Shown here one piece after another: positions 9,180 through 56,808 of a stretch of DNA of 64,000 nucleotides. Numbering within the stretch: position 1 is the stretch's first letter; each line of letters starts with the position of its first letter. Source of the DNA: Acidimicrobiia bacterium (lineage in GTDB: Bacteria > Acidobacteriota > Terriglobia > Bryobacterales > Bryobacteraceae); assembly GCA_016871315.1 (NCBI GenBank), contig VFZE01000007.1, positions 62,001-126,000 on the forward strand, in the 5' to 3' direction. Under the pieces are notes generated by a model. It searched no databases and was not told the origin of the DNA. It saw nothing but the letters and a program-made list of their open reading frames with translations. The position numbers and the translations under genes were made by a program.

Positions 9180-9274
9180 GGTTAAGATTATGAAAAACAG
9201 AGCTTTACGTTCTTAACAATCGCCGGAACCCGCTGCTTTCTATGCTAATCTGAACGTGGATTGATGGAGCCTTT

Positions 9275-11802: not shown

Positions 11803-11812
11803 AGTCTGGAGA

Positions 11813-12124: not shown

Positions 12125-12237
12125 CGGTTGATCCTTTCAAAAATGGGCGTCTCTGTCAGACTGTAGTCGTAGGTAGGAACTACCGGCCGGAAAGCATTCG
12201 CGGATAAACGCATGCGGGCAAAGACCCCTTTATTGTA

Positions 12238-12715: not shown

Positions 12716-12740
12716 CGGTCGTTTTCCGGCTCGCATTGTA

Positions 12741-12746
12741 TATAGT
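12741..12746 (+). promoter_or_regulatory. -10 box placed for a leaderless methyltransferase mRNA
   Basis: TATAGT ends six bases before ATG 12753. No Shine-Dalgarno is present in GGATAG. No convincing -35 was seen. Confidence 0.45.
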
Positions 12747-12752
12747 GGATAG

Positions 12753-14920: not shown

Positions 14921-16193
14921 ACTGCTCCAGTTGGACCGCCCGCAGCAGAAAGACCTCGACCGCTGCGTGCATTGCGGTCTCTGCCTCAACGCCTGCCCCA
15001 CCTATCGCGAGAATGGCCTCGAAATGGATTCCCCGCGCGGGCGTATCTATCAGATGAACCTTGTCGCCGGCGGCGCCGAAATCGGCCCCAGCTATCTCGA
15101 ACACATCGAGCTGTGCCTCGCCTGCCGCGCCTGCGAAACCGCCTGTCCTAGCGGCGTCCAATACGGCCGTCTCATGGAAGCCGCCCGCGCCGAGATTGAG
15201 CAACGCGTTCACAGACCCTGGACCGTGCGCCTGGCGCGCTCCGTCGTCTTCGGCTGGCTGCTTCCTTCGCGCACCGGTTTGCGCATGGCCGCGGGCATGT
15301 TGTGGGCCTATCGCAAACTGGGTATCCAGGCGCTGGTGCGGTCGGTTGGACTGCTGCGATTGTTCGGAAAACTGGGCGAACTGGAGCAGTTGGCTCCCGA
15401 TGCCGAATTGCCAACCTTCTTCTCGCAGTATGGAAAGGTGTTCCCCGCCGAAGGCGGCCGCCGCTACCGTGTCGCGCTGCTGGGAGGCTGCATCGCCAAC
15501 ATCAGCTTCGCCCGCCTGAATGAGGCCACCGTCCGCGTGCTGCAAAAGAACGGCTGCGAGGTCACCGTCCCAGACGGCCAGACCTGCTGCGGCGCTTTGC
15601 ACATGCACTCCGGAATCCGCGATCAGGCCCGCGAACTGGCCCGCCAGAACATCGCCGCCCTGATGCAAGGCAACTACGACGCGATCATCACCAACGCCGC
15701 CGGCTGCGGCTCCACGCTGAAGGAATACGGCGAGCTGCTCGAACATGACAACGGTTCCGCCGCGGCGGCGCAGGAATTCTCCCGCAAGGTAAAGGATGTC
15801 ACCGAATTCCTCGCGTCCATGGAATTGACGCCGCCTCGCGGCAAACTGAACGTCAAGGTCACCTACCAGGACTCCTGCCACCTCGCCCACGGCCAGAAGG
15901 TTAAGGCCGCTCCGCGCCAGCTGCTCCGCGCCATTCCCGGACTGCAGCTGAAGGAGATGATGGCCGCCGACATCTGCTGCGGCAGCGCAGGCATCTACAA
16001 CGTCGTGCAGAACGAGATGTCGATGGCCGTGCTGGAAAAGAAAATGGCGAACGTCAACCGCACCGGCGCTGCCGTCATCGCCACCGCCAATCCCGGCTGC
16101 ATGCTGCAACTCCGCGCCGGCGCCTGCCTGCATGGGGACGGCCAGCGCGTGGCACACGTCGTGGAATTGCTGGACGAAGCCTACCGCGCTTAG
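14907..16193 (+). CDS. glcF: Iron-sulfur subunit of glycolate-oxidase-like complex
   Basis: 428 aa. Two 4Fe-4S motifs are present: Cys20, 23, 26, 30 (CVHCGLCLNACPTY) and Cys70, 73, 76, 80 (CLACRACETACPSG). Two CCG domains follow: LLGGCIANISFARLNE ... GQTCCGALHMHSG, and YQDSCHLAHGQ ... ADICCGSAGIYN. This order and length match GlcF and related hydroxyacid oxidase Fe-S subunits. It should transfer electrons from the flavin subunit to the quinone pool. It is the third gene in an overlapping run and ends five bases before a convergent gene. Confidence 0.92.
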   Translation: MDASELLQLDRPQQKDLDRCVHCGLCLNACPTYRENGLEMDSPRGRIYQMNLVAGGAEIGPSYLEHIELCLACRACETACPSGVQYGRLMEAARAEIEQRVHRPWTVRLARSVVFGWLLPSRTGLRMAAGMLWAYRKLGIQALVRSVGLLRLFGKLGELEQLAPDAELPTFFSQYGKVFPAEGGRRYRVALLGGCIANISFARLNEATVRVLQKNGCEVTVPDGQTCCGALHMHSGIRDQARELARQNIAALMQGNYDAIITNAAGCGSTLKEYGELLEHDNGSAAAAQEFSRKVKDVTEFLASMELTPPRGKLNVKVTYQDSCHLAHGQKVKAAPRQLLRAIPGLQLKEMMAADICCGSAGIYNVVQNEMSMAVLEKKMANVNRTGAAVIATANPGCMLQLRAGACLHGDGQRVAHVVELLDEAYRA

Positions 16194-16198
16194 TCCGG

Positions 16199-17032
16199 CT
16201 ATCTCGACTCCAGCCGCCGCAGCGTGAGTTGCGCCTGTTGCTGGATCTGATCGTTCGGGTTGCGTAGAAAGCGGCGGACGGCATCGGCGTCCTCGCGCCT
16301 CCCGACAAGAAACAGCGCGCGCAAAGCCTCCCAGGCGTGCTGGTCGTCGGCGGCCAGTTCCATCAGCGGCTGCCCGGCATCCACTGCCGATTCATCGGGA
16401 ACCAGCCGGGAGCGAATCGCGCCGGGCAGTTCGCATCGAACCTCGGCATCATCGATCCGCGCCACCAACGTTCCGGCATTCGTGTATTCGCCTTCCTGCA
16501 GGCGGAACTTTACGCGCCCCGAACGTGGCGCCTTCACCTCGGATGGCTCCAGCATCGCCCGGATTTCATCAACCCCGGCATCGTCGCGGAACGCGGCCAG
16601 AGCCAGCGCCGCGTTGCGCCGCACCAGCGGGACCTCATCCTTCAGCAGTCCATGCAGCGCCGCGCGGAACGGCTCATGCGTGCGGTCCTGGCCCATGATC
16701 CAGGCAACGCTCTGCCGCAGCTCCGGATTGGAGTGGCCGGCCAGCTCGGCAATGCGCGGATAGTACCGCCGCGCGGAGCGGTCGCTGCGCGCCATCTTCT
16801 CACCGATCTGCACCAGCGCCTGCTGCATGCGCCGCGGCCGCTGCTCGTTGGCCAGGTACTCTTCCATCGCGGCGTCGGTCAGCCGCCGGCCGAACCAGGA
16901 GTCATACCAGAACCAGAACGGCAGCGCCACCATCGCCACCGCGATTCCCGTGATGAGAAGGTAGGCGCGCCGGCTCGGACGTTTGCCCACCGGCCGCCCG
17001 CTCCAGCTGGTCTCTTGCGGCATCTGTTCCAT
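16199..17032 (-). CDS. Membrane-anchored HEAT-repeat protein with a lipoyl/HlyD-like insert
   Basis: 277 aa. One TM helix spans ~23-42. HEAT-like helices cover ~65-165 (LRQSVAWIMGQ, PLVRRNAALALAAFRDD). At ~166-228 comes VKAPRSGRVKFRLQEGEYTN, then AGTLVARIDDAEV ... VDAGQPLMELA, the double-psi, G-x-V-x-G layout of biotinyl/lipoyl and HlyD barrel-sandwich domains without the biotinylated Lys. HEAT-like helices resume to the end. The order HEAT-lipoyl-HEAT is unusual. It is likely an envelope scaffold, but no partner transporter is adjacent. Confidence 0.7.
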   Translation of the reverse strand: MEQMPQETSWSGRPVGKRPSRRAYLLITGIAVAMVALPFWFWYDSWFGRRLTDAAMEEYLANEQRPRRMQQALVQIGEKMARSDRSARRYYPRIAELAGHSNPELRQSVAWIMGQDRTHEPFRAALHGLLKDEVPLVRRNAALALAAFRDDAGVDEIRAMLEPSEVKAPRSGRVKFRLQEGEYTNAGTLVARIDDAEVRCELPGAIRSRLVPDESAVDAGQPLMELAADDQHAWEALRALFLVGRREDADAVRRFLRNPNDQIQQQAQLTLRRLESR

Positions 17033-17053
17033 GTGTGGAAGTTCAGCTTTGCA

Positions 17054-17887
17054 TTATACGTCGCAGATGCGCAGCGCCTCGTCGAGCGACGTGAGGGCGT
17101 CCTTGAGCGGCGTGTACTCATGCGCCACCCATCCGCTGAACTTCAATTCGGCGATGGACCGCGCGATCCCCAGATAGTTCATCTCCTGCGTGTCGTCGAA
17201 CTCGTGCCGCCCCGGATTGCCGGCAGTATGAAAGTGCGCGATGTGCTGGAAATTGTCGCGGATCGTCCGGATGATGTCGCCTTCCATGATCTGCGCATGA
17301 TAGATGTCATAGAGAATCTTCACTCGCGGTGAATTCACGCGCTTGCAGATCTCCACGCCGAATTTCATCCGGTCAAACTGGTAGTCCGGATGGTTCACCT
17401 TCGAGTTCAGGTACTCCATGCAGATGTTGACGCCCTTGTCCTCGGCGTGCGCCTTCACCTTGTTCAAAAAGGCGGCGCAGTTGTCGATCGCCTCCTCATC
17501 GGAGATGCCGGCACGATTGCCGGAAAAGGTGATGACGTTCGGAACCCCATTGGCGGCGGCCTTGTCGAGGTTCGAGCGCATCACCGCCTCCAGTTTTTCG
17601 TGATTCTCCTTCCGGTTCAGCGCATCCCGGATGGAACCGGCTCCAGGCGCCATGGTCGGCACCAGTCCATGTTTTTTCAGCGTGGGCCAGTCGGCCTCCC
17701 CGATCAGGTCGAAGCCGGTGGCGCCGAGCCGCGCCGCATGATGCGCCATCTCATCGAGTGAAAAATTGGTGCCGCGGAAACAGCCGCGCGTCACGGCCTG
17801 CTTCAGCCGGCCTTTCCGTTGCGCCCGGGTCTGCTGCGCCGCCAATGGCAGCGCCGCCAGCGTGGGAACAAAGTTTCTGCGGTTCAT
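17054..17887 (-). CDS. Hydroxypyruvate-isomerase-like TIM barrel, exported
   Basis: 277 aa. The N-terminus MNRRNFVPTLAALPLAAQQ is a Tat-like signal. The body is an AP-endonuclease-2/xylose-isomerase-like barrel: LGATGFDLIGEADW, NVITFSGNRAG, INICMEYLNSK-like strand (VNICMEYLNSKVNHPDY), ILYDIYHAQIMEGD and HFHTAGNPGRHEFDD, with the metal ligands Glu, Asp, His and Glu of Hyi/IolI-like isomerases. Exported homologues are common in Acidobacteriota and Planctomycetes; their substrates are mostly unknown sugars. The methyltransferase gene lies four bases upstream on the same strand. Confidence 0.85.
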   Translation of the reverse strand: MNRRNFVPTLAALPLAAQQTRAQRKGRLKQAVTRGCFRGTNFSLDEMAHHAARLGATGFDLIGEADWPTLKKHGLVPTMAPGAGSIRDALNRKENHEKLEAVMRSNLDKAAANGVPNVITFSGNRAGISDEEAIDNCAAFLNKVKAHAEDKGVNICMEYLNSKVNHPDYQFDRMKFGVEICKRVNSPRVKILYDIYHAQIMEGDIIRTIRDNFQHIAHFHTAGNPGRHEFDDTQEMNYLGIARSIAELKFSGWVAHEYTPLKDALTSLDEALRICDV

Positions 17888-17891
17888 GCCC

Positions 17892-18710
17892 TTATCCTAC
17901 TCTCTTTACGCCAACCGCGATCCATGCGCTGCGCCGGTGCTCCATCCTCTCCGGAAAATTCTTTGCCAGCGCCTCTCGCGCCTGTTCGCGGAAGCGATTC
18001 CACTGGTCCTCGTCCAGGTTGCTGCGGAGAAATCGCGTTTGCGTGGAAGCTTCGCGCATCGCGAGAAAATCCTCCCGGTCCACTCTCATGATGTTTTCCA
18101 CCCGCCGCACGGTGACCGAGTCCAGCCCGGCTCCCGCCAACGCCTGCTCCAACTGCACCGGATCGGTATATCGATCCTCCGACGGCAGCGCCGCCTGCAA
18201 AGCCTCCCTCCACCGATCCGGCTGGACGAACGAATCGGCCACCTCCTGCCACAGCTTGCGCGGCGGATCCTGCTCATCGGTCCAGGCGGTCACTCCCAGA
18301 CGTCCGCCCGGCCGCAACACCCGCACCATATCGAGAAGCGCCGATTCGGCGTCGGCGATATGAGAAATCACAAAGTTGGCAAACACCCGGTCAAACAGCC
18401 CGTCGCGGAACGGAATTCCCGGCGCCACGGCGTGCACCACGCGGTCGATCCCTTTCCCGCGGGCCACACGCAGCATCACAAGCGACGGGTCAATCGCCGC
18501 GACGATGCCTGCCTCCCCAACCTTTTCCTTTGCGATCAATGCCGCCACGCCGGTTCCTGTTCCCACGTCCAGCGTCCGCGCACCCGGAGGGATCTCCAGC
18601 GCCCCGATCATCTCCCGCGCTGGCGGCTCAAAAAGCAAGCCCGCCGAGAGCCGCTCGTGCGTCGCGGCCACCGAATCGTAGGATTTCCAGGACTGCATCC
18701 TTGACACCAA
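17892..18710 (-). CDS. Class I SAM-dependent methyltransferase
   Basis: 272 aa. Motif I is LDVGTGTGVAALIAKEKVG; IDPSLVMLRVARG ends strand 2; GLFDRVFANFVISHIAD is motif post-I; and LRPGGRLGVTAWTDE is motif III, a UbiE/Methyltransf_11 pattern. GTG 18710 is preferred over ATG 18698 because AAAGGAG (minus strand, 18713-18719) is correctly spaced only for the GTG. The substrate is unknown. It is transcribed with the isomerase-like gene downstream and divergent from the amidohydrolase gene, with overlapping control regions. Confidence 0.85.
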   Translation of the reverse strand: MVSRMQSWKSYDSVAATHERLSAGLLFEPPAREMIGALEIPPGARTLDVGTGTGVAALIAKEKVGEAGIVAAIDPSLVMLRVARGKGIDRVVHAVAPGIPFRDGLFDRVFANFVISHIADAESALLDMVRVLRPGGRLGVTAWTDEQDPPRKLWQEVADSFVQPDRWREALQAALPSEDRYTDPVQLEQALAGAGLDSVTVRRVENIMRVDREDFLAMREASTQTRFLRSNLDEDQWNRFREQAREALAKNFPERMEHRRSAWIAVGVKRVG

Positions 18711-45308: not shown

Positions 45309-46310
45309 ATGGCTTTTAGCCGCATCGGGCGGGCCCTCTCCGCCAGGGAAATCCGCGACCTCGTCTCCGCCGACCTGGAAAAGGTCGAAAGCGAAATCCA
45401 TCTGGAGTCCATCGCTTCCGTGGACGCCGTTACCGCCATCTCCAAGTACCTTCATGGCAACGGCGGCAAACGCCTGCGGCCGACGCTGCTCCTGCTTTGC
45501 AACAAGCTGATCGGCGAAACCACTCCCGGCGCCATCCGCCTCGCCGCCGTCGTCGAGATGATCCACACGGCAACTCTCGTTCACGACGATGTCATTGACT
45601 ACTCGCAGACGCGCCGCGGCAAACCCTCCGCCAACGTCCTGTGGGGCAACCATACCTGCGTGCTGGCCGGCGACTGGCTCTACATGCAGGCCTTTCAGAT
45701 CGCCCTGCGCGAGCGCAATTTCCGCATCCTTGACATTCTTATTTCGCTCACCCAGATGATGGTGGAAGGCGAGCTGCTGCAATTGGAGCGTATCGGTAAG
45801 ATCGACATCACCGAAGGCGACTACATGGAACTGGTCGACCGCAAAACCGCCAGCCTGTTTTCTGCCTGCGCCCGGCTCGGCGCATTGATCGCCGGCGCTG
45901 ACGAAAACACCGAATCCAATCTTTCCGACTTCGCATGGAACCTCGGCATGGCCTTTCAGTTGATCGACGATGTGCTCGATTTCACCTCGCGCGAATCCGT
46001 GCTCGGCAAGCCCGTCGGAAACGATCTCCGCGAAGGCAAGGTTACTCTCTCGCTCATCTACGCACTTTCCGATGCCGCGCCCGATGAGCGCCAGCAGGTG
46101 GAAACCGTTCTTCGCGACGCCAACTACGGCCGCGTCGGACTCGACCGTATCCTCGCCATGATCGAGCGTCATCAGGGTGTGGAACGGGCGCGCCAGCGCG
46201 CGCAAGTCTTCACCGACAAGGCCCGCGAGATCATAGCCGATTTTCCCGAATCCCCCTATCAGCGTGCCCTGCTCACGTTAACCGATCTCATCACCGAACG
46301 CGAATTCTGA
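45309..46310 (+). CDS. Trans-polyprenyl diphosphate synthase
   Basis: 333 aa. The first Asp-rich motif is DDVID (93-97) followed by TRRGKPS; the second is DDVLD (220-224) in FQLIDDVLDF. NGGKRLRPTLLLL carries the IPP-binding Arg residues. The residues before the first motif (EMIHTATLVHDD) include small side chains, as in long-chain enzymes, so an octaprenyl- or similar quinone side chain is likely (IspB type). A beta-lactamase-like gene starts seven bases downstream and is probably in the same mRNA. Confidence 0.93.
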   Translation: MAFSRIGRALSAREIRDLVSADLEKVESEIHLESIASVDAVTAISKYLHGNGGKRLRPTLLLLCNKLIGETTPGAIRLAAVVEMIHTATLVHDDVIDYSQTRRGKPSANVLWGNHTCVLAGDWLYMQAFQIALRERNFRILDILISLTQMMVEGELLQLERIGKIDITEGDYMELVDRKTASLFSACARLGALIAGADENTESNLSDFAWNLGMAFQLIDDVLDFTSRESVLGKPVGNDLREGKVTLSLIYALSDAAPDERQQVETVLRDANYGRVGLDRILAMIERHQGVERARQRAQVFTDKAREIIADFPESPYQRALLTLTDLITEREF

Positions 46311-46316
46311 GGTGTC

Positions 46317-47291
46317 ATGATGCGCATCGTTGTTCTCCTCCTGGCTGCCTCTGCCGCCTTCTCCGCCGACCAATCACTAGCCAAGCTGGAAGCCGAGATG
46401 GCGCGGGTCGCCACGGTCGGCGGAGGTATCGCCGGCGCCACCGCCATTCACATCGAGTCCGCCCGCACTGCCTCCCTGCGCGCCTCCGAACCATTCCCCA
46501 TGGCCAGCACCTATAAGGTGCCCATCGCCGTTCAGCTGCTTCATCTCGTCGATCAAGGAGCCGAGCGGCTCGACCGCATGGTCACGCTGCTGCCATCCGA
46601 TCTTCACCCAGGCTCCGGCACGCTCACCGAGCTCTTCAACAAACCAGGCGTCGCCCTCTCCGTCCGCAATTTGCTGGAGCTGATGCTGCTCATCAGCGAC
46701 AACTCCGCCACCGACGTCCTGCTTCGCCTCGCAGGTGGTCCTGATGCCGTCAACGCCCGCCTCCGCGCCATCTCCATCGATGGCATCCGCGTCGATCGGC
46801 CCACCGCCCTGCTCATTGCCGACTGGGCCGGCGCAACCAATCTTCCGCGGCAGCAGGACTGGAGCCCCGATCTGTTCCGCAAGCTGATGCGCGAAGTTCC
46901 CGAGGCGGACCGCAGGGCCGCCGCGGCACGCTTCGACCGTGACCCGCGCGACACGGCGACACCGGACGCCATGGCCCGTTTGCTTGTCCGCATCCACAAG
47001 AAGGAGATCCTCAGGCCGGACACGGCGGAACTCTTGTTGGACATCCTCCGCCGTTGTCAGACCGGTCAGGCGCGGCTCAAGGGAATTCTCCCTGCCGGCA
47101 CCGTCGTCGCTCACAAAACCGGCACCATCGGCGGCTCAACCAACGACGTTGGCATTATGTCGCTACCCGCGCAAGCTGGCCATGTGGCCATCGCCGTTTT
47201 CCTCAAATCCTCCGACAAACCCGCCGCCGAGCGCGAGCGCGCCATTGCCGAAATCGCCCGCACCGTCCACGACTTCTTTCTCTACTTCTGA
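46317..47291 (+). CDS. Class A beta-lactamase-like serine hydrolase with altered omega loop
   Basis: 324 aa. The signal peptide is MMRIVVLLLAASAAFSADQ. Motifs: Ser64-T-Y-Lys67 (MASTYKVP), Ser126-Asp-Asn (ISDNSATDVLL) and Lys266-Thr-Gly (AHKTGTIGG). The segment equal to R-L-D-R-W-E166-P-E-L-N170 of TEM reads RVDRPTALLI, so Glu166 and Asn170 appear replaced by Thr and Ile, and ~45 residues precede PRDTATPDAM instead of ~13. Either a different Glu (192 or 195) serves, or deacylation is poor and it is a penicillin-binding or esterase-like protein. Resistance cannot be claimed. ATG 46320 is an alternative start. Confidence 0.85.
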   Translation: MMRIVVLLLAASAAFSADQSLAKLEAEMARVATVGGGIAGATAIHIESARTASLRASEPFPMASTYKVPIAVQLLHLVDQGAERLDRMVTLLPSDLHPGSGTLTELFNKPGVALSVRNLLELMLLISDNSATDVLLRLAGGPDAVNARLRAISIDGIRVDRPTALLIADWAGATNLPRQQDWSPDLFRKLMREVPEADRRAAAARFDRDPRDTATPDAMARLLVRIHKKEILRPDTAELLLDILRRCQTGQARLKGILPAGTVVAHKTGTIGGSTNDVGIMSLPAQAGHVAIAVFLKSSDKPAAERERAIAEIARTVHDFFLYF

Positions 47292-47845
47292 TCCGCAATC
47301 ACGAGGTGCTTAGGGACAGGATCCGTCGATCTTTCGTAGGCAGTGCGAAACTCCTCGCCCAACGCCGCCAATCCGTGATTCACGGAGTCGAGATACGTGG
47401 ACCGGATGGCCGCTTCCCGCGGACCGCTCACTTCGCTCTTCCGATAGTGCGGCCGGCAAACGTACGCGTACACAGGGCCTCCCTCGACGCGAGTCTCCAG
47501 GCTCGATCCCACCTCGACACGATCGTAAATCGACTCATCCTCATCGATCCGGCACAGTTCCTCCGCGCTCACCGCAAACACGGATCCGTTGAGGACGGTC
47601 CCCGTATCCGGCGCGATGTTCAGATACAGTATGCTCTCCGGATACATCCGCCCTGCCGCCGTCTCCGTGTAGTAGCTCTGGTTCGGCATCGCCGCCTCCC
47701 ACTTCCGCCGCCATCCCCGCAGCTGGCTCATCACGAACGGTCCGCGATAGCTCTTTCCCAGCGTCTCCTCCAGCGCGGCCACAGACAGTAGTGACCCGTA
47801 GCCGAACAACGCCACTTGCCCCGGCTCAAACCTGATCGTGTCCAC
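47282..47845 (-). CDS. Gamma-glutamylcyclotransferase-like protein
   Basis: 187 aa from GTG 47845. The N-terminal substrate loop is VALFGYGSLLSVAALEETLG (Y-G-S-x motif). Strand LNGSVFAVSAEELCRIDEDE supplies the acidic position usual for the catalytic Glu, and VYAYVCRPHYR ends the barrel. It fits the GGCT-like/AIG2-like fold, acting on gamma-glutamyl amines or related compounds; substrate unknown. The gene overlaps the beta-lactamase-like gene tail to tail by 10 bases and begins inside the end of a decayed membrane-protein gene. Confidence 0.8.
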   Translation of the reverse strand: MDTIRFEPGQVALFGYGSLLSVAALEETLGKSYRGPFVMSQLRGWRRKWEAAMPNQSYYTETAAGRMYPESILYLNIAPDTGTVLNGSVFAVSAEELCRIDEDESIYDRVEVGSSLETRVEGGPVYAYVCRPHYRKSEVSGPREAAIRSTYLDSVNHGLAALGEEFRTAYERSTDPVPKHLVIADQK

Positions 47846-48152
47846 CCTGATATGCTAGCTCGGCTTTCCGATGCGGCCGCACAGCCACGGCAAGAAACGC
47901 CAACCCCGCCATCGTCCATCCGAAGAAGACACTGTTGTCGCCCGAAAGCAGGGGAACCACCGCGCCGATCAACGACGTCAGCTACGTTGCCTGCCCGCTG
48001 TGTAGTTCCGATGCCTGAAACTGCATCCACGGCAACCCCTGCCACGCCGCGTCCGGATGATCCATCCCCCGGTACTGATTTGTCAGCGTGAACTTCCGGA
48101 AAAAGCCGATGCAGATCCCAAGCAGCGCCGCGGCGGGCCAGATTCTTTTCAT
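47826..48152 (-). pseudogene. Membrane-protein remnant retaining first and last helices
   Basis: From ATG 48152 the frame gives MKRIWPAAALLGICIGFF and then TNQYRGMDHPDAAWQGLPW, typical of the first helix and loop of large multi-TM glycosyltransferase/YfhO-like proteins. An in-frame TAG at 47982-47984 follows. After it the same frame resumes with LTSLIGAVVPLLSGDNS and VFFGWTMAGLAFLAVAV, a last pair of helices. A protein of this type should be 500-800 aa; here 108 codons remain, so the middle was deleted. It sits directly after the glycosyltransferase gene. Confidence 0.6.
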
Positions 48153-48160
48153 TCCGGGGA

Positions 48161-49168
48161 CTAAGACCCGGGAAGGCCTCCCGGCAACGACGGCGAATCA
48201 AACCAATGTTCCAGATATGGATCACTCACCCGCCGCCGCCGCATGATCTCCTTGCGCCAGGCCAGCGCCCGCCGGACGCCGCTCCACACCAGCCCGAAGG
48301 CGCGCAGCGACGATCTCTCCCAGAACAGGCACGCCCCGATCACCACCACGTCGCGGCCTGTGATCTGCCACCAATGCCGCCGGTAAACCGCACCCGTCAC
48401 ATTCTTGATCCGCATCAGGAACCGGTTCTTCACCGAATGCATGTTCACGGTCTGCGAAACTCCTCGCCGATTCGCCGCCGTCAGCCTGCGAACATGCCAT
48501 GCCACCGCGTCCGGCGTATACAGGCAACGCCACCCGAGAAGCTGCGCCCGCCACGCCACATCGGCATCTTCCCGGTAGGAAAAAAACTGCTCATCGAAGA
48601 ACTCTTCGTTCACCGAAACATCCTCGATCATCGCCCGCCGGTACAGCGCCGCCGCGCCGCTCGCCCCGCATACGTATTCCTCGCGGTCGTATCGGCCGTC
48701 GTCGGGGTCGTTCCACCCGCGGTCGAAATGCCGCAGCGACGGACTGAAATATATGCCCACCGAATCGATCCGCCGCTCCTGATAAAAAGTAAAATCCGGC
48801 CGGATCCGCAGCAGCTTTCCGCACCCGGCGCCGACGCGCGGATCTCTTTGGCATGCCTCCACCAGTGTTCGCGCGAACTCCGGCGTCAACAGCACGTCGG
48901 GATTCAGTGTCAGCACCCAGTCCCCGCTGCTCGAACGGATTGCCAGGTTCTGCCCCGCTGCGAATCCGGTGTTCTGCCCGTGATAAATCACGCACGCCCG
49001 GTCCTGGTACTTCTCCAAAACCTCCTGCGTACCGTCGGTGGAGGCGTTGTCCACCACAATTACCTCCAGCGAAACGCCTTCCTGGCCCAGCACCGAATCC
49101 AGGCACGGCCCAATCCAGGCCCGGCTGTTATAACTGACTATCGTTACGCTTACCGTCGGGGCCGTCAC
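48161..49168 (-). CDS. Family 2 glycosyltransferase, rhamnosyltransferase-like
   Basis: 335 aa from GTG 49168. The GT-A fold is clear: VSVTIVSYNSRAWIGPCLDS, VIVVDNASTDGTQEVLEKY, NTGFAAGQNLAIRSSSGDWV, LNPDVLLTPE, the family's N-P-D motif, then CGASGAAALYRRAMIEDV and FFDEQFFSYREDADVAWRAQ with an E-D catalytic pair. It resembles dTDP-rhamnosyl transferases of O-antigen or exopolysaccharide synthesis. It is divergent from the sigma factor gene and followed by a decayed membrane-protein gene that may once have belonged to the same cluster. Confidence 0.9.
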   Translation of the reverse strand: MTAPTVSVTIVSYNSRAWIGPCLDSVLGQEGVSLEVIVVDNASTDGTQEVLEKYQDRACVIYHGQNTGFAAGQNLAIRSSSGDWVLTLNPDVLLTPEFARTLVEACQRDPRVGAGCGKLLRIRPDFTFYQERRIDSVGIYFSPSLRHFDRGWNDPDDGRYDREEYVCGASGAAALYRRAMIEDVSVNEEFFDEQFFSYREDADVAWRAQLLGWRCLYTPDAVAWHVRRLTAANRRGVSQTVNMHSVKNRFLMRIKNVTGAVYRRHWWQITGRDVVVIGACLFWERSSLRAFGLVWSGVRRALAWRKEIMRRRRVSDPYLEHWFDSPSLPGGLPGS

Positions 49169-49270
49169 AACCTCTAAGACCCGCCGCCGGCCACGCCAAC
49201 GACGCCTGAATAAAATATTTTCATCCCCTGTCGTTGTTTCCGCCCCCGCGTGGTCTTAGGATCGTATCTA

Positions 49271-49852
49271 GTGGCCCCTGCCACGAAGCCTATGTACTTC
49301 CACGCACCTGAGGAGCAATGGGATGAAGTCCTGCGGCTGGACCGTGCGAAGGTGACCTTACAGGATAAGGTAACCCGGCTCTACGAAGAGGCCCGCGATG
49401 ATGTCTATCGCTACCTGTTACTTCTCGGCCTGACGCCTCCGCAAGCTCAGGAAGCCGCTCAGGAGGTCTTTCTTCGCCTTTACGTCACCCTCAGTAAAGG
49501 AGAGGAAATCCACAGCCCCCGCGGCTGGATCTTCCGTGTCGCCCATAATCTCGGCCTCAAGCTGCGCGCGAAAAACTCTGCTCAGCTCCCCTTCGATCCC
49601 GAACTCGAGGCCCGCCTGCGCGACCCCGACGTCAGCCATGAGCAGAGTCTGCTGGAACGCGAACGTTGGATTCTCCTCCACCGCGGCATCGAGTCGCTTT
49701 CCGAACAACAACGCCGCTGCCTGTTTTTGCGCATGGAGGGGCTTCGCTACCCGGAAATCGGCGAGGCGCTCGGTATCAGCGCCTCCTCCGTGGCGGAGTT
49801 TTTGCGCCGCGCCATCGCGCGGTTGAGAAAGGTCTGTCATGAGTCGCCTTGA
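49271..49852 (+). CDS. ECF-like sigma-70 family RNA polymerase sigma factor
   Basis: 193 aa from GTG 49271; GTG 49250 and ATG 49292 remain possible. GTG 49271 lies eight bases after TAGGAT, which is 17 bases from TTGTTT (49234-49239). Region 2 is DDVYRYLLLLGLTPPQAQEA and AQEVFLRLYVTL, with PRGWIFRVAHN; region 4 is LSEQQRRCLFLRMEGLRYPE and IGEALGISASSVAEFLRRAI. It has no extra domains. It overlaps the zinc anti-sigma gene by 14 bases, which is followed by a TonB receptor, suggesting surface signalling. Confidence 0.9.
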   Translation: MAPATKPMYFHAPEEQWDEVLRLDRAKVTLQDKVTRLYEEARDDVYRYLLLLGLTPPQAQEAAQEVFLRLYVTLSKGEEIHSPRGWIFRVAHNLGLKLRAKNSAQLPFDPELEARLRDPDVSHEQSLLERERWILLHRGIESLSEQQRRCLFLRMEGLRYPEIGEALGISASSVAEFLRRAIARLRKVCHESP

Positions 49853-51452
49853 AACGCGCCATCTTTCCCAGGAGGAGATGCTCAAGCTTGCCGACGGAGA
49901 GCTGCCGGGCTCGGCCCAGGCGCGTGCTCACCTGGAAGCCTGTTGGCAGTGCCGCGCTGATTTCGAAGAACTGCAAGCCTCCATCGGCGAACTGATCCGC
50001 TACCGCAAGTCCGCCTGGCAGCCTTACGCGCCTCCGCCTCCGGCGCCCTGGGCGGATCTGCGCCCGCGGTTCCAGCAAGCCGATGCGGGCCTCGCAAACC
50101 GGCCGTTGTTCACCAGGCTCGCCGGCTGGTTCTCTTCCACCTTTCGCCCTCCCACCCGCTGGGCGCCCGCCGCGGTCGCCATGCTCGCCATGGCCGCCAT
50201 CATTTATCAGTTCTGGGATACACCCCGTGTCGAGGCAGCCGTCATCCTTCGCAAGGCGGTCGACGCCGCCGCCGTGCGGCCCGCTTCCGCAAAGCGTCTC
50301 GACATCCGCCAGGGCGGGCGTCCCGCCGAGCCCGCCGCCGTGGAAGCTCTCTTCCGCGCCGCTCATTACGATTGGCGGAATCCGCTCAGCGCCAAAGCTT
50401 ATCTGGACTGGTTCGATCAGCTTTCCCAAAAACAGGAAGAGGTCATCTCCGATCCCGATTCGGCTTCCGCCCCCGCCTGGCTCATCCGCACCACTACCCG
50501 ACACAGTGAGCTTGTCCAGGCCACTCTCCTCCTTAGCCGCGATGACTGGCAGGCGCTCGAAGGCACCTTTCAGTTCCGCGGCCAGGAACTGATCCGGATT
50601 CGCGAACTCGCCGCCGAACCCGCCGCGGAGACTCTCTCGACGGCTGCCGCGCCTCCGCCGCCCGCCGCCGGCGCCCCTGCCGCGCCGCCCTCCAGAACCG
50701 CTTCCCCGTCCCCCGGCGATGAGCTTCGCGTTACCGCCGCGCTTCACCGCATCTCCGCCGATCTGGGTGACCCCGTCGACATTGCGCGCTCTTTCGAGCG
50801 TATCCTGATAACTGGTGTCGGTATTCCCGCCGAACGACGGCGTCAGATCCAGGAGGCCGTGGGCGCCATGCCTTTCGTCGAGCTTCAGTTCCAGGAGCCT
50901 GCCGCTTCCTCCTCCTTGCCGTCGGCATCCCGGCGCATCTCTTCCACCAGACGAGCCTCTCCCTTCCAACAACAGCTGGAACAGCAGCTCGGCGGCCGGC
51001 CCGCGCTGGATCAGTTCACCGACCTGATTCTCGATGCCACGGACCAGATGATGTCCCAGGCGCACGCTCTGCGCCGCCTCGCCGAACGCTTCCCGCGCGC
51101 CGTGGAAACCTCGCTGCCGCCGGAGGATCGCGCATTGCTCGACAAGCTCCGCGGTGAGCACGCTGCGGCCCTGCGCGAACTCCTCGCCCGCATTCACGCC
51201 GACGCCAGTCCTGTTCTTCGCGCTCTGTCGGCTCAGCCCTCACCTGCACCCGCGCCGCAGCTACAGGACTGGCAGGCCTCCACCTCGCGCTTCTTTGAAA
51301 CCGCGCGGCGGATGGAGCGGCTCTTTACTATCCTGCTCGGCGGCGCCACCGCCGACTCCGGCGCACCGGATGAAGCCGGCCTTCCCTCTGAGTTGCTTGC
51401 TTCTCTCCATCAGTTGACCCAGCTCGGCCAAGCCCTGGAGCCGCGCCCGTGA
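49839..51452 (+). CDS. Zinc-type anti-sigma factor with large periplasmic domain
   Basis: 537 aa. Residues 1-60 are an anti-sigma zinc domain with His31-x3-Cys35-x2-Cys38 (HLEACWQC). One TM helix lies at ~108-126 (WAPAAVAMLAMAAIIYQFW). The remaining ~410 residues face the periplasm: a strand/helix part (~130-260), a Pro/Ala-rich linker (~270-300), then a helical domain with many Glu/Arg pairs (ILDATDQMMSQAHALRRLAE). The periplasmic part resembles no domain I can name. Overlaps of 14 and 4 bases with its neighbours couple sigma, anti-sigma and receptor. Confidence 0.82.
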   Translation: MSRLETRHLSQEEMLKLADGELPGSAQARAHLEACWQCRADFEELQASIGELIRYRKSAWQPYAPPPPAPWADLRPRFQQADAGLANRPLFTRLAGWFSSTFRPPTRWAPAAVAMLAMAAIIYQFWDTPRVEAAVILRKAVDAAAVRPASAKRLDIRQGGRPAEPAAVEALFRAAHYDWRNPLSAKAYLDWFDQLSQKQEEVISDPDSASAPAWLIRTTTRHSELVQATLLLSRDDWQALEGTFQFRGQELIRIRELAAEPAAETLSTAAAPPPPAAGAPAAPPSRTASPSPGDELRVTAALHRISADLGDPVDIARSFERILITGVGIPAERRRQIQEAVGAMPFVELQFQEPAASSSLPSASRRISSTRRASPFQQQLEQQLGGRPALDQFTDLILDATDQMMSQAHALRRLAERFPRAVETSLPPEDRALLDKLRGEHAAALRELLARIHADASPVLRALSAQPSPAPAPQLQDWQASTSRFFETARRMERLFTILLGGATADSGAPDEAGLPSELLASLHQLTQLGQALEPRP

Positions 51453-54445
51453 CCGCTTCCAGCAGGCAGTTCTGGATGCTGCTGGGCCTGCTTTGCTCCA
51501 TTCCGCTTCTCGCCCAGCAATTCAGCCAGATCTCAGGCTTGATCCGCGATCCTTCCGACGCCTCCGTGCCCGGCGCCACCGTCACCGTCGTCAGCGAGGA
51601 TACCGGCTTCCGCCGCGTCGCGCTGTCCCAATCAAGCGGCGCCTATGTCGTCGCTTCGCTGCATCCGGGCCTCTATCGCATCACCGTCCGTAAGCCCGGT
51701 TTCCGCACCGTCGTTCATCTCGGCGTCAAACTCGACGTCGCCAGTTCCGCACGCGTCGATTTCTTGCTCCAAGTCGGCAGCCTCCAGGAACAGATCACCG
51801 TCGACGGCTCCTCCATCAGCCTTCCTCATGAGGACTCCGCTTCCGGCGCCCTCGTCGGACGCGACTGGATTGACCGCCTTCCTCTCAACGGCAGAGGCTT
51901 GCTCGGACTCCTCGAACTCGCCCCAGGCGCACTGATCACCCCCGCCACGCGCGGCGAAGCAGGCCAGTTCACCGTCAACGGCCAGCGTCCCAATACGCAC
52001 TCGTTCACTGTCGACGGCCTCACCGTCAACAACGGCGTCACCGGCGGCGGACAGCAGGCGCAATCCACCGGCGGCTCCCTGCCCGGACTTACCGCCTTCG
52101 GAAGCTTTCACCACTTGCTCTCCACCGAAGCCCTCGACGAGTTCCGCATCCAAACCTCCACCTTCGCTCCCGACTTCGGCAAACTCCCCGGCGCCCAGGT
52201 TTCCCTCAGCAGCCGCGCCGGCGCCAATCAGTTCCACGGCTCCTTCTACCATTTCCGCCGCCAGCACCAGCTCGACGCCAATGACTGGTTCGCCAACCGC
52301 GCCGGTCTGCGCGACACCGGCTCCCGTTTCAATGATTCCGGAGCCACCCTCGGCGGCCCGCTCGCCAGAAACCGCGCTTTCTTCTTCCTCTCCTATGAAC
52401 GGCTGCGCCTCCGCCAGCCGCTTCTGTGGCGCTCCCCGGTGCCGTCGGCCGACACCAGGAATCGGGCGCCGGCTTGGGTCGGGCCGTTATTTGATCTCTT
52501 CCCTCCTTCCTCCGGCGCGGCTCTTGGGGATGGCTTGAACGATTGGGCCGGACTGAGCCAGCGTCCCTCCCGCCTCGATACCCGCGCCGCCCGGCTCGAT
52601 TACGCCCTCACTTCCCGCATCACCCTCTTCTCGCGCATCACCGAAGCTCCTTCACGCTCCGAGTTCGGCAATACCCAGGTCAATCGCCTCATCATTCGTT
52701 CCGCCAATCTTTCCGGCGGCCTCAATGCCACCCTCGGGCCGCAATTCATCAACGATTTCCGCTTCGGCTTCAACCGCACCCGCGGCGACTCCACCTGGCG
52801 CATTGATCGTCCGCTCCCGGACTGCTACCTCCCCACGATTCCTTTCCTCGAATCCACTCGCGGCGTCTCCTGTGATTCCTTCTTTCAGATTTCCATTGCC
52901 GGGCTGGAACGCCTGATCTCCGGCCGCGAAAGCCAGAACAGGCAGGTTCAATGGCAACTGCTCGAGTCCGTCGCCCTCACCCGGGGCTCTCATCACCTCC
53001 GCTTCGGGGTCGACTACCGCAGAATCACACCCGAACGCACACGCCCCGTTTGGAACGTCCAGGTGATGGCCGAAAACCTCGCCGATTTTCAGGCCGGCCG
53101 TAATGTCTGGGTCGTCACCACCGCCCCCGAGCAAGGCCGCATCCTGATGTCGGAATACTCCGCCTATGCGATGGATAGCTTCCGCGCCAGCAGCAAGCTC
53201 ACTCTCACCTACGGTCTGCGCTGGGAGTTCAACCCCTCACCCATTTCCTTTAAACCAGTCTTCGGCCTCGAGCCCACCGGCAGCGTTTTCTCGCCTTCCA
53301 AGGGCATTCCCATCTGGCGCGCCGCTTATTCCAACCTTGCCCCACGCGCCGGTTTCGCCTATCGCCTCCACAACCACACGGCCACGATTCTCCGTGCCGG
53401 CATCGGTGTCTATTACGACTCCAGCCTCGCCGCCGCCACCGATCTCGTCAACGGCGGCCCATTCAACATCTGGCAGCTCGGCAGTCCCGCCTCTCCCGCC
53501 ACCGGGCCCATACGCACCATTCTCAACTTCGGCTTCTCCCCCGAACTGCACTGGCCTGTCGTGCGCCACTGGAACCTCTCGCTTGAACAGCCACTGTCCG
53601 GCGCCGATTCCTTCACCGCCACCTACCTCGGTTCCGCCGGCCGCTCTCTCCTCCGCCGCGAAATCTCCGGCGACGCCTACAACAGCCTCATCCGCGTCGC
53701 GCTCACCGCCAATCACGCCGTCTCCGACTATCACGCTCTGCAACTCCAATACCGCCGCCGCATGGCCCGCCGCCTGCAGATGCTCGCCACCTATACCTGG
53801 TCCCATTCCATCGACACCGGCTCTTCCGATTCCGCCCTCCACTGGCTCGGCCACAACCACTGGTCGCTCATCGATCGCGGCAACTCCGATTTCGACGTCC
53901 GCCATTCCCTCAACCTCGCCTTCTCTCTTCCCCTCCGACGCTGGTCGCTCGACGGCATCTATCGCGCCCGCACCGGATTCCCCATCAACGTGCTTCACGC
54001 CGAGCATGCCATGGGCGTCGCCTTCGCCAACGTCTTCCGGCCTGACCGCGCCCCCGGCGTTCCTCTCTGGTCCCCTGATGCTTCCGCCCCAGGCGGCCGC
54101 CGCCTCCATCGCAACGCTTTCCTCTCGCGACCCCCGCTGGAACAAGGCAACCTCGGCCGCAACTCCGTCCCCGGCTTCGGCATGTCACAGCTCGATCTTT
54201 CCCTACGCCGCGAGTTTCCCCTCACCGAACGCACCGCCCTCCGCTTCCGCCTGGAAGTTTTTAACGTCTTCAATCAGGCAAACTTCGCCGACCCGGTCCG
54301 CTTCCTCACCAGTCCCTTGTTCGGCGAATCAGCCTCCATGCTCAACCTGCTGCTCGGCAGCGGCACTGCCGGTTCCGGTCTCGCTCCCATGCTCCAGATC
54401 GGCGCTCCGCGCTCCTTACAATTCTCGTTCGGCTTCCACTTTTAA
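51449..54445 (+). CDS. TonB-dependent receptor (Oar-like) of the sigma/anti-sigma unit
   Basis: 998 aa. The signal peptide is MTASSRQFWMLLGLLCSIPLLAQ. A carboxypeptidase-regulatory domain occupies ~27-115 (SGLIRDPSDASVPGATVTVV, GLYRITVRKPGFR). The plug has RLPLNGRGLLGLLELAPGAL and FTVNGQRPNTHSFTVDGLTV, and the barrel ends in RFRLEVFNVFNQANFADPVR with a terminal F-G-F-H-F. No FecA-type STN signalling domain precedes the plug, so the regulatory domain would have to contact the anti-sigma protein. It overlaps the anti-sigma gene by four bases. Confidence 0.92.
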   Translation: MTASSRQFWMLLGLLCSIPLLAQQFSQISGLIRDPSDASVPGATVTVVSEDTGFRRVALSQSSGAYVVASLHPGLYRITVRKPGFRTVVHLGVKLDVASSARVDFLLQVGSLQEQITVDGSSISLPHEDSASGALVGRDWIDRLPLNGRGLLGLLELAPGALITPATRGEAGQFTVNGQRPNTHSFTVDGLTVNNGVTGGGQQAQSTGGSLPGLTAFGSFHHLLSTEALDEFRIQTSTFAPDFGKLPGAQVSLSSRAGANQFHGSFYHFRRQHQLDANDWFANRAGLRDTGSRFNDSGATLGGPLARNRAFFFLSYERLRLRQPLLWRSPVPSADTRNRAPAWVGPLFDLFPPSSGAALGDGLNDWAGLSQRPSRLDTRAARLDYALTSRITLFSRITEAPSRSEFGNTQVNRLIIRSANLSGGLNATLGPQFINDFRFGFNRTRGDSTWRIDRPLPDCYLPTIPFLESTRGVSCDSFFQISIAGLERLISGRESQNRQVQWQLLESVALTRGSHHLRFGVDYRRITPERTRPVWNVQVMAENLADFQAGRNVWVVTTAPEQGRILMSEYSAYAMDSFRASSKLTLTYGLRWEFNPSPISFKPVFGLEPTGSVFSPSKGIPIWRAAYSNLAPRAGFAYRLHNHTATILRAGIGVYYDSSLAAATDLVNGGPFNIWQLGSPASPATGPIRTILNFGFSPELHWPVVRHWNLSLEQPLSGADSFTATYLGSAGRSLLRREISGDAYNSLIRVALTANHAVSDYHALQLQYRRRMARRLQMLATYTWSHSIDTGSSDSALHWLGHNHWSLIDRGNSDFDVRHSLNLAFSLPLRRWSLDGIYRARTGFPINVLHAEHAMGVAFANVFRPDRAPGVPLWSPDASAPGGRRLHRNAFLSRPPLEQGNLGRNSVPGFGMSQLDLSLRREFPLTERTALRFRLEVFNVFNQANFADPVRFLTSPLFGESASMLNLLLGSGTAGSGLAPMLQIGAPRSLQFSFGFHF

Positions 54446-54502
54446 TCTCCGCGCCGTGGCAGTTCCGTTTCCGGAAAGCTCTTAGTCATTGAGGAACGCA
54501 CC

Positions 54503-54577
54503 ATGAGAATAAGGCCCCTGCTGGTCCTTTATCTTCTGATTGTCCGAGTCGCTTACGCGGTGTGGCGCGCGCTCTAG
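54503..54577 (+). CDS. Tiny hydrophobic ORF (24 aa) after the receptor
   Basis: ATG 54503 has GAGGAA nine bases upstream. The peptide [20 protein letters not shown] plus four residues is one membrane-spanning helix with basic ends. It lies 57 bases after the receptor stop and its stop overlaps the convergent ispG end. It could be a small membrane peptide of the signalling unit or chance; conservation would decide. Confidence 0.4.
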
Positions 54578-55809
54578 GAAACCGCCGCTTCGCGCCGCCC
54601 GTACCGCGCCGTCACGTAGTCGTTCAGGATCGCGATGAACTCTTCCACAATCCGCTCCCCGCGCAGCGTGCGCGTCAACCGCCCATCCACATACACCGGC
54701 GCCACCGGCTCCTCGAACGTCCCCGGCAACGAAATCCCGATGTTGGAGTGTTTCGATTCACCCGGCCCGTTCACCACGCAGCCCATCACCGCCACCGTCA
54801 TCTCCTCCACGCCCGCGTGGCTTTCCTTCCACACCGGCATCTGCTCTTTCAAATACCGCTGGATCTGATCCGCCATCTCCTGGAAGAACGTGCTCGTCGT
54901 GCGCCCGCAGCCCGGACACGCCGTCACCTGCGGCGTGAAGCTCCGCAGCCCCAGCGATTGCAGCACCTGCTGGCACACGATCACTTCCTCCGTGCGGTCC
55001 CCGTTCGGCATCGGCGTCAGCGAAGCGCGGATCGTATCGCCGATCCCTTCCTGCAATAGCACCGCCAGCGCCGCCGTCGTCGCCACGATTCCCTTCGAAC
55101 CCATCCCCGCCTCGGTTAGCCCCACATGCAGCGGATACTCGCACCGCGCCGCCAGGTCGCGATACACCGCGATCAGGTCCTGCACCTTGCTCACCTTCGC
55201 GCTCAGGATGATCTGGTCCGGCCGCAATCCGTAACTCACCGCCGCCTCCGCCGACAGCAGCGCGCTCGCCACAATCGCGTTCCGCGTCACTTCGTTCGCG
55301 TCCAGCGGTTCGCTCAGCGCCGAATTCTCGTCCATCATCCGCGTTAGCAGCGCCTGGTCGAGCGACCCCCAGTTCACGCCGATCCGCACCGGCTTGTCAT
55401 ACTCAATCGCGCATTCGATCATCGTCCGGAAATTATCATCGTGCTTCTTGCCGATATTCACGTTGCCAGGATTGATCCGGTATTTAGCCAGCGCTCGAGC
55501 GCACTCCGGATACTTCTTCAGCAACAAATGCCCGTTGTAGTGAAAGTCGCCCACGATCGGAACCTCCACCCCGAACATCTGGAGCGCCGCAACGATCTTC
55601 GGCACTGCCGCCGCTGCTTCTTCCGTGTTCACCGTCACACGCACCAGCTCGGAGCCGGCCTGCGCCAGCGCCATCACCTGGTTCACCGTTCCGGTCACAT
55701 CCGCCGTGTCCGTGTTTGTCATCGACTGCACGACGATCGGATGAGTCCCGCCCACCTTCACGCCGCCTACCTCCGCTACGATTGATTTCCGGCGCGCAAT
55801 TGCCGCCAT
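54574..55809 (-). CDS. ispG: 4-hydroxy-3-methylbut-2-enyl diphosphate synthase
   Basis: 411 aa. It reduces MEcPP to HMBPP in the MEP isoprenoid pathway with a 4Fe-4S cluster. N-terminal [20 protein letters not shown], substrate barrel motifs ([11 protein letters not shown]), cluster cysteines in [14 protein letters not shown] and [20 protein letters not shown] with the following Glu. Its length matches the common bacterial form. It stands alone; the polyprenyl synthase of the window uses its downstream products. Confidence 0.96.
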
Positions 55810-55853
55810 TCGACCTCCAATTCCGAATTGTAACGCGAGACAATGGTAGCTTC

Positions 55854-56808
55854 ATGCCCAAACCCGAGGACTTCCTTGTCACCCAGCTCGGCGAGCCGCG
55901 TTTTGTCAACCCGCTCTCCCGCCAGTCGGCCGCCGACGGCGCAGGCGTTCGCTTCATCTCCGACGACACCCGCATTCCTCTCGAAATCGAAGTCGTCCCC
56001 GGCCGCCCCTACCGCCCCGAACTCTCCTTTCAAAAAGCCGGCCCGCTCGAGCGCATCTACTTCGACCCCGCCTCAACCCGCCATCGTCACCTGCGGCGGC
56101 CTCTGCCCCGGCCTCCACAACGTCATCCGCTCTATCGTCATGCAGCTCTATCACGGCTTTGGCGTCCAAGACGTCGTCGGCATCCGCTACGGCTACAAAG
56201 GCCTCGACCCGGCCAGCGGCATCCATCCCATCCCGCTCCGCCCGCAGCACGTCGCCGATATTCACTAGCTCGGCGGCACCATGCTCGGCACCTCGCGTGG
56301 ACCCGCTGACCTCCCCTCGATGGTCAATTTCCTCCGCAACAACCGCATCCAAATCCTCTTCACTATTGGCGGCGACGGCACCCAGCGCGGCGCGCACGCC
56401 CTTGGCCAGGAGGCCGCCCGCCAGAACCACCCGCTCTCGGTCATCGGCATCCCCAAGACCATCGATAACGACATCCCCTTCGTCTGGCGCTCCTTCGGTT
56501 ATGAAACCGCGCTCGAAAAATCCCGCGAAGTTGTCGAGTGCGCCCACAACGAGGCTATCGGCCACCGCAATGGCATCGGGCTCGTAAAGCTCATGGGCCG
56601 CGAGGCCGGATTCGTCGCCGCCGGCGCCACGCTCGCCTCCGGCGACGTCAACTACTGCCTCGTTCCCGAAGTCCCCTTCGACCTTGATGGCGAAGCCGGC
56701 CTCCTCGCCCACCTCCGCAGGCGCATTGAAACCCGCGGCCACGCCGTCATCGTCGTGGCCGAAGGGGCCGGGCAGGATCGTCATCGGCATCTGGAGGTCG
56801 TTTCGCCC
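55854..56808 (+). pseudogene. 6-phosphofructokinase-family gene, frameshifted, interrupted and truncated
   Basis: From ATG 55854 (MPKPEDFLVTQLGEPRFVNP) the frame is lost near 56065-56080. It continues in another frame with IVTCGGLCPGLHNVIRSIVM and GIRYGYKGL up to an in-frame TAG at 56266-56268. After the stop a third segment reads GTSRGPADL, LFTIGGDGTQRGAHALGQEA and IGIPKTIDNDIPF with PFK catalytic residues, then FVAAGATLASGDVNYCLVPE and ends at VIVVAEGAGQD. The last ~130 residues are gone. The layout matches the long PPi/ATP PFK family of plants and spirochaetes. The third segment stays open straight into the CBS gene. Confidence 0.85.

Follow-up and report, generated by a model that had tools for sequence, protein, structure and literature searches.

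A conserved ECF sigma factor, transmembrane zinc anti-sigma and Oar-type receptor gene unit in Acidobacteriota as a candidate receptor-coupled switch

Examination of a 64,000-nucleotide (nt) stretch of DNA (assembly GCA_016871315.1, contig VFZE01000007.1, positions 62,001 to 126,000 of the forward strand; hereafter the window) from a bacterium deposited as Acidimicrobiia and assigned by GTDB to the Bryobacteraceae of the Acidobacteriota reveals three overlapping genes. They code for an extracytoplasmic function (ECF) sigma factor, a transmembrane zinc anti-sigma (ZAS) protein and an Oar-type outer-membrane receptor. On balance, we lean toward the view that they constitute an autoregulated sigma/anti-sigma switch coupled to the receptor. 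The gene order, the domains, a conserved box with its neighboring genes and the presence of an RseP-family gene in the genome are established at the level of sequence. The three genes are:

49271..49852, forward strand: ECF sigma factor gene, 193 amino acids (aa) from GTG 49271, with ATG 49292 as an alternative start
49839..51452, forward strand: transmembrane ZAS anti-sigma gene, 537 aa, overlapping the sigma gene by 14 nt
51449..54445, forward strand: Oar-type outer-membrane receptor gene, 998 aa, overlapping the anti-sigma gene by 4 nt (GTGA)

The overlaps of 14 and 4 bases had been noticed in an earlier, sequence-only reading of this region, and they were recovered when the open reading frames (ORFs) and starts were re-read. 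The sigma protein starts at either GTG 49271 or ATG 49292, the latter position matching many orthologue starts in the alignment. It matches Sigma70_r2 and Sigma70_r4_2 (Pfam) and TIGR02937, all above cut-off, and so displays the regions 2 and 4 and the TIGR02937 signature that define ECF sigma factors. The 6.25 Mb genome has 33 sigma70-ECF matches above cut-off, a single match to the anti-sigma query and an RseP-family gene (TIGR00054, 301.5 bits against a cut-off of 147.55). Judging from sequence comparison, the overlaps and the order of the three genes are beyond chance, and they recur in dozens of genomes.

The best records for the anti-sigma query come from Bryobacterales, Bryobacteraceae and Solibacter metagenome-assembled genomes, all Acidobacteriota. 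Within the family 123 of 200 genomes match at E<=1e-3, many over the N-terminal part only. From these, 61 loci were taken, 56 of them distinct and none of the 56 identical to the window, with some closely related to each other; the counts exclude the duplicates (L001, which equals the window, L076, L082, L088 and L089) and two loci with distant sigma factors (L049 and L050, 38-42% identical). The remaining sigma orthologues are 57-75% identical to that of the window, and the anti-sigma orthologues show about 33-45% identity across nearly their full length. Sigma and anti-sigma genes overlap in 50 of 53 readable pairs (by 8 nt in 37, 4 nt in 12 and 11 nt in 1); two others lie 22 nt apart and the last, whose start is unsure, was scored at 127. 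Receptor linkage was assessed in those 47 orthologue loci of the Bryobacteraceae in which a receptor was seen or the sequence continues for 1.5 kb or more downstream, omitting seven loci that are short downstream, one of which (L062) shows a receptor start. In 39 of the 47 no more than 200 nt separate the receptor gene from the anti-sigma gene, in 3 the distance is 385-3842 nt, and 5 show no receptor gene.

Beyond these orthologues, 89 of 299 genomes of the class match the anti-sigma profile at 1e-6, again many by the N-terminal part only, and in 12 of 15 further loci picked from such matches sigma, anti-sigma and Oar genes follow in order, including one (L174) that belongs to the orthologue group. 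L173 would be a thirteenth, its anti-sigma profile matches falling between sigma and receptor twice in tandem; the two exceptions are L164, which has no receptor, and L165, which has no detectable sigma gene. The L173 locus (4625-18178, forward strand), from a genome of the same order, thus carries two tandem sigma/anti-sigma/Oar triplets. Across the phylum 17 of 396 genomes match the profile at 1e-10, and in the 5 of these outside the class an Oar gene follows the anti-sigma gene in every case, with the complete triplet, sigma gene seen, in 3. The synteny search that the sequence-only reading had called for hence finds the triplet conserved in family, class and phylum, and the objection which that reading had raised against itself, namely that such triplets might not be conserved elsewhere, falls away. 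None of the titles and abstract openings listed in searches of open-access literature describes a sigma/ZAS/Oar unit.

Side-by-side comparison of the upstream sequences reveals a box with the consensus TGTAGTTG-N15/16-GGTCTTW just before the sigma gene, mirrored further up in front of a divergent gene for a family 2 glycosyltransferase (GT2). Neither the GT2 gene nor the mirror box had figured in the sequence-only reading. The sigma-specific promoter sites that it proposed to map now have candidates, placed by pattern at the sigma and mirror positions:

49229..49258, forward strand: candidate promoter of the sigma operon, TGTCGTTG...GGTCTTA, one of three sites in the genome
49175..49204, reverse strand: mirror candidate promoter facing the GT2 gene, CGTCGTTG...GGTCTTA, another of the three
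48161..49168, reverse strand: GT2 glycosyltransferase gene (PF00535, 2.7e-29), a predicted regulon member that may in fact begin a few codons further in
48162..48192, reverse strand: third box site, inside the 3' end of the GT2 gene, from the genome pattern scan

For the box and GT2 counts, 51 loci were available after also excluding L031 and L036 (less than 420 nt upstream) and L080 (no sigma gene in the contig). A divergent GT2 orthologue, 52-62% identical to that of the window, is present in 45 of all 51 and in 40 of the 45 with more than 1.5 kb upstream. The pattern YGTMG-N18/19-GGTCTTW occurs within 400 nt in forward orientation in 42 of 51 loci, in mirror orientation in 35 and in both in 32; in shuffled sequences, which kept single-base composition only, the forward box was found in a mean of 0.02 of the 51 loci and at most 1. 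The motif columns carry 1.66-1.79 bits of information against 0.38-0.47 in the spacer and flanks. Since the box was derived from these same sequences, the figure of 42 is not independent, and genome scans provide fairer tests. In the window's own genome YGTMGT-N17/18-GGTCTTW occurs three times, each time within the 1.1 kb at 48162-49258 of the window, against 6 occurrences genome-wide of the reversed control, so that it is the clustering at the operon, not the number, that is telling. The pattern TGTMGTDG-N15/16-GGTCTTW, run on 15 relatives selected because they have the locus, yields 34 sites (reversed control, 3), of which 21 lie at the sigma locus and 13 elsewhere. The box is absent within 450 nt upstream of all 16 paralogous sigma genes outside the orthologue group. 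We rejected the possibility that paralogues share it, the only occurrence in 17 being at L174, itself of the orthologue group (65% sigma identity).

Four of the 13 distant sites precede secreted proteins with the Soli_cterm domain (TIGR03437), twice in G036 and once each in G020 and G163, as a raw count. At these loci (L208, L210, L214 and L220, from three genomes) the Soli_cterm gene is the next one after the box, at 7 to 216 nt, possibly a first hint of how such proteins are regulated. In G163 a GT2 orthologue (56% identical to the window's) lies elsewhere, with a box 26 nt upstream, and no GT2 gene was found at the sigma locus. Two more sites precede polytopic membrane proteins resembling glycosyltransferases, one with a sub-threshold PMT match and the other 35% identical to an enzyme-like protein encoded after the L038 receptor. 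The rest precede a protein with a sub-threshold outer-membrane match, an SBBP protein and, in four cases, no clear target. The module therefore likely controls a small envelope regulon. These targets also bring into play the explanation that the Oar protein exports or displays proteins and that the sigma/anti-sigma pair senses the export load, in what would be a secretion or surface-assembly unit. Such a function would be in keeping with the boxes before Soli_cterm proteins and likely glycosyltransferases and with the requirement of Oar for PopC secretion in Myxococcus (PMC6434023). In the window's genome, however, all three sites lie at the operon, and therefore no Soli_cterm gene elsewhere there carries the box; we consider this explanation improbable.

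The anti-sigma protein was modeled with AlphaFold2 on 17 sequences, giving a mean predicted local distance difference test (pLDDT) score of 79.3 and a predicted template modeling (pTM) score of 0.47. Its regions, the last three predicted from the model, are:

49860..50027, forward strand: zinc anti-sigma domain, residues 8-63, candidate ligands H8, H31, C35 and C38
50151..50216, forward strand: single membrane helix, residues 105-126, modeled as a helix and hydrophobic in sequence
50226..50648, forward strand: predicted LolA/RseB/MucB-like domain, residues 130-270 (VIA-align)
50691..50918, forward strand: predicted BON-like domain, residues 285-360 (VIA-align)
50961..51449, forward strand: predicted helical bundle, residues 375-537, pLDDT by block mostly 76-95 with one at 68

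The H31-x3-C35-x2-C38 motif and the upstream H8 show no variation across the 17 aligned sequences, of which the window's is one, and residues 11-63 are helical in the model, which bears out the assignment to the ZAS type made in the sequence-only reading. zf-HC2 (Pfam, E<=1) matches 16 of the 17, the window's own copy being the one without a match. Among PDB sequences the anti-sigma weakly matches RsiW and ChrR, the best hit for the zinc domain being RsiW 5wuq (E 0.0012). Hence by its motif the protein is a ZAS anti-sigma, with zinc and sigma binding predicted. It is also, as had been described, a single-pass protein, with the helix at 105-126 followed by 411 residues, and unlike FecR, no FecR domain being found by Pfam at E<=1 in any of the 17 sequences.

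The periplasmic part of about 410 residues had been called unknown; it can now be predicted, from the model, to comprise LolA/RseB/MucB-like and BON-like domains and a helical bundle. With VIA-align, residues 130-270 match 4mxt (Z 12.6, root-mean-square deviation (rmsd) 6.2, 120 aligned), RseB 2p4b (Z 9.7, rmsd 7.4) and MucB 6in8 (Z 8.1, rmsd 5.5), and residues 285-360 match BonA 6v4v (Z 8.1, 73 aligned, rmsd 4.0) and DolP (Z 6.3); as regards an STN-like subdomain in the anti-sigma, BON-like entries are present among the fold matches listed. Given that Foldseek returned no match for the periplasmic model better than E 0.011 and that the rmsd values are high, the RseB and BON folds, and with them the RseB likeness of the periplasmic part, constitute a good lead and not a proof.

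This predicted fold raises the most serious alternative, an envelope-stress switch of the RseA/RseB kind in which the ligand of the fused RseB-like domain would be lipid or mislocalised envelope components and the receptor is output only, with no receptor-borne signal. That E. coli makes RseB as a protein of its own tells, like the modest fold matches, against this alternative. In its favor, MucB and RseB are sensors of lipopolysaccharide that respond to lipid A and guard the anti-sigma against proteolysis until lipid releases it (PMC7400510). We regard this alternative as a real possibility that is nonetheless rather doubtful.

The receptor has a hydrophobic, signal-peptide-like N-terminus and matches OMP_b-brl_4 (2.7e-116) and CarboxypepD_reg (1e-17), both above cut-off in Pfam, and thus combines the carboxypeptidase-regulatory domain and outer-membrane barrel characteristic of Oar proteins:

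51527..51769, forward strand: carboxypeptidase-regulatory-like domain, receptor residues 27-107 (PF13620)

Plug is sub-threshold in the window's copy (17.4 bits against a cut-off of 23.9) and present at E<=1 in all nine triplet receptors scanned. STN was found in none of these nine (Pfam, E<=1), in agreement with the claim that the receptor lacks the STN domain of FecA. The further claim that it offers a carboxypeptidase-regulatory domain instead holds as to the presence of the domain, but not as to a special signaling add-on, given that all eight other Oars scanned from the same genome also carry CarboxypepD_reg above cut-off; we therefore rejected it as a triplet-specific signaling domain. 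These findings bear on a further explanation, that the unit is a classical FecI/FecR/FecA surface-signaling system with diverged domains. The three kinds of gene in one operon and the single membrane helix of the anti-sigma are alike in both. Against it stand the missing FecR and STN domains, the zinc motif in their stead and the different predicted periplasmic folds, making it very improbable.

At least 65 PF25183 receptors besides the window's are encoded in its own genome (G000; loci L091-L120 and others). The window receptor is about 44-54% identical to triplet receptors of other genera and at best 40% to the own-genome Oars found. Receptor trees were computed with FastTree, with Shimodaira-Hasegawa (SH)-like support only and several long branches flagged, using 37 and later 51 other Oars (48 from the window's genome and 3 triplet neighbors elsewhere). 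One branch (SH-like 100) unites all 43 orthologues, namely 37 together with 6 encoded away from the anti-sigma gene, and also holds 2 of the 51 other Oars, one of them a triplet neighbor. Of 18 receptors encoded behind other related anti-sigma genes, it further includes 10 (no sigma gene was detected for L165, L237 and L238 among the 18, and none was looked for in L232), and the remaining 8 scatter among other Oars. We accordingly rejected the idea that triplet receptors form one exclusive lineage. Because those 8 lie among other Oars, such sigma/anti-sigma pairs have probably joined Oars of different branches more than once, a reading of the trees subject to caution over long branches. A sigma-type gene lies near 3 of the 48 other own-genome Oars (L155, L156 and L158). 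At L155 (1609-6906, forward strand, own genome C2) there is a second neighborhood of sigma, anti-sigma-like and Oar genes, of different make: an ECF sigma factor, a protein of 155 aa that has the H-x3-C-x2-C motif and a single hydrophobic helix, a further protein of 164 aa and the Oar.

In light of these contextual connections, we propose that the ZAS domain, on the cytoplasmic side, tethers the sigma factor to the inner membrane, while the RseB/MucB-like, BON-like and bundle domains would form a periplasmic sensing half that is exposed or shielded by the state of the outer membrane or the receptor. The Oar receptor, perhaps via its carboxypeptidase-regulatory domain, would be the likely partner of this half. 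A signal could then trigger stepwise proteolysis of the anti-sigma, the last step by the RseP protease, and the freed sigma would initiate at TGTMGTTG-N15/16-GGTCTTW boxes and so increase expression of its own operon with the receptor gene, of the divergent GT2 gene and, in relatives, also of further likely glycosyltransferases and secreted proteins. Reading of the box by the sigma factor, action of the anti-sigma upon it and proteolysis are all steps that we infer. We are least certain that the receptor acts as the input and is not just a product, and give this about even odds.

A role for the receptor is favored because the adjacency of anti-sigma and Oar genes lasts across the phylum and involves Oars from different branches, more than a mere target of the sigma factor would need. 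Several observations weigh against the coupled switch. Full-length receptor orthologues (43-48% identity) are encoded elsewhere in 6 of 6 genomes searched whole (those of the five receptor-less loci and of the short locus L072), so that receptor loss at these loci was rejected as an explanation, and no box was seen upstream of the six in the 0.1 to 1.5 kb of flank examined. Coupling is therefore not obligatory, and the sigma/anti-sigma pair stays in genomes whose receptor lies elsewhere. The fusion of an RseB/MucB-type domain into the anti-sigma makes input possible without the receptor, and CarboxypepD_reg being equally common in other Oars leaves no known receptor domain specific to triplets. 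Nine of the 51 loci lack the box, and no site was found in two of the 15 relative genomes. Finally, the structural matches are modest (E no better than 0.011 with Foldseek, rmsd 4-7 Å, pTM 0.47), and the receptor model (AlphaFold2, nine sequences) reaches a pLDDT of only 47. The RseB-like fold, the six unlinked, box-less receptors and the want of a triplet-specific receptor domain favor an envelope-state sensor with the receptor as product, as do the envelope genes behind boxes in relatives and the terminal F of 34 of 36 complete receptors, a residue frequent at the end of outer-membrane barrels. The suggestion of the sequence-only reading that signal transfer uses other parts than Fec-type systems is thus upheld in that Pfam finds neither a FecR domain in the anti-sigma nor STN on the receptor, but the receptor as sensor is not supported, given the fused RseB-like domain and the six unlinked receptors.

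Some further features lie around the operon and its counterparts:

54503..54577, forward strand: 24-aa hydrophobic ORF, not conserved, no role assigned

This ORF, listed in the sequence-only reading as a membrane ORF following the receptor, does exist, but of the 37 loci (the window's among them) where the receptor is complete, just one other (L066) has a short hydrophobic ORF in the first 130 nt after it. As that one differs in sequence, the ORF has no counterpart of like sequence in the 36 other loci; it was given no weight and set aside as a part of the system. Downstream of the third box (window 47844-48192, reverse strand), an ORF with a hydrophobic start begins within about 15 nt and stops after 56 codons; past the stop this frame again encodes a hydrophobic stretch. 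The ORF is perhaps a decayed membrane protein gene; as a conserved protein it was rejected, given the in-frame stop and a single non-self match (E 0.09) among the loci compared.

In three genomes of genus g24 a further box occurs just past the GT2 gene (L222:1893-2014 and L223:1993-2108, forward strand; L039:1937-2055, reverse strand), followed by about 120 conserved, apparently non-coding nt in which a UCCUU loop and a long hairpin resembling a terminator can be seen. This candidate sigma-dependent small RNA has fold z-scores of -4.6, -1.0 and -4.2, has no Rfam match and is present in 3 of 200 family genomes, all of g24. In G117 the third box and the RNA candidate are followed, at a distance of about 220 nt, by a second, different Oar gene (L222:2116-5604, forward strand). 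No counterpart of the RNA candidate was found in the window, the best E-value of its model R1 over 47000-55000 being 0.2 with filters off, and no Rfam family reaches its gathering score in 46000-56000.

Soils are rich in Acidobacteria, whose genomes may encode Oar-type receptors of unclear purpose by the dozen. A conserved sigma/anti-sigma/Oar unit with a readable box hence offers a direct route to what Oars sense or move. If the receptor is indeed the input, the unit would represent a second solution to signaling from the outer membrane to the cytoplasm, with neither FecR nor STN; if not, it would be a one-piece analogue of RseA-RseB. More tentatively, and as somewhat short of probable, we put forward a separate kind of receptor-coupled signaling in Acidobacteriota, in which the STN-STN handshake would be replaced on both sides, by CarboxypepD_reg on the receptor and by an RseB-like, BON-like and bundle reader on the anti-sigma, and in which the switch would tune surface glycosylation and secreted proteins.

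Among known systems, Fec, Fpv, Fox and Pup resemble the unit in encoding an ECF sigma factor, a single-pass anti-sigma and a TonB-type receptor together, a trait of FecA-like systems that the window shares. In Fox and Pup contact is made between the STN domain of the receptor and an STN-like subdomain within the anti-sigma, and the periplasmic part of FoxR consists of a beta-solenoid and an STN-like domain (both PMC11637429), whereas the window's anti-sigma is predicted to have RseB-like and BON-like domains and a bundle. It also differs from Fec-type systems in the zinc motif and missing FecR domain of the anti-sigma, in a receptor with CarboxypepD_reg and no STN, and in the divergent GT2 gene with its mirror box. 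As neither of the two defining domains tested, FecR and STN, was found, the unit is not a FecR/FecA system, though it may work like one. The Bacteroidota likewise have clusters of sigma, anti-sigma and CarboxypepD-type receptor genes in their ECF/anti-sigma/SusC-D loci, which use FecR-type anti-sigmas and STN-bearing SusC transducers. With RpoE-RseA-RseB and AlgU-MucA-MucB the unit shares a transmembrane anti-sigma, a predicted LolA-fold domain of the RseB/MucB type and an RseP-family gene in the genome; in contrast to these, its sensor domain is fused into the anti-sigma along with BON-like and helical domains, and there are a zinc motif and a linked Oar. The H...H-x3-C-x2-C motif, compared on the zinc-ligand numbering of ChrR, and the weak PDB sequence matches recall ChrR and RsiW, from which the window's anti-sigma differs in its very large multi-domain periplasmic part and in the receptor gene of its operon. 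Lastly, the receptor has the order of CarboxypepD_reg, plug (sub-threshold in the window's copy) and barrel seen in Oar of Myxococcus and other CarboxypepD_reg-containing TonB-dependent receptors, but unlike these, it is locked to a sigma/anti-sigma pair.

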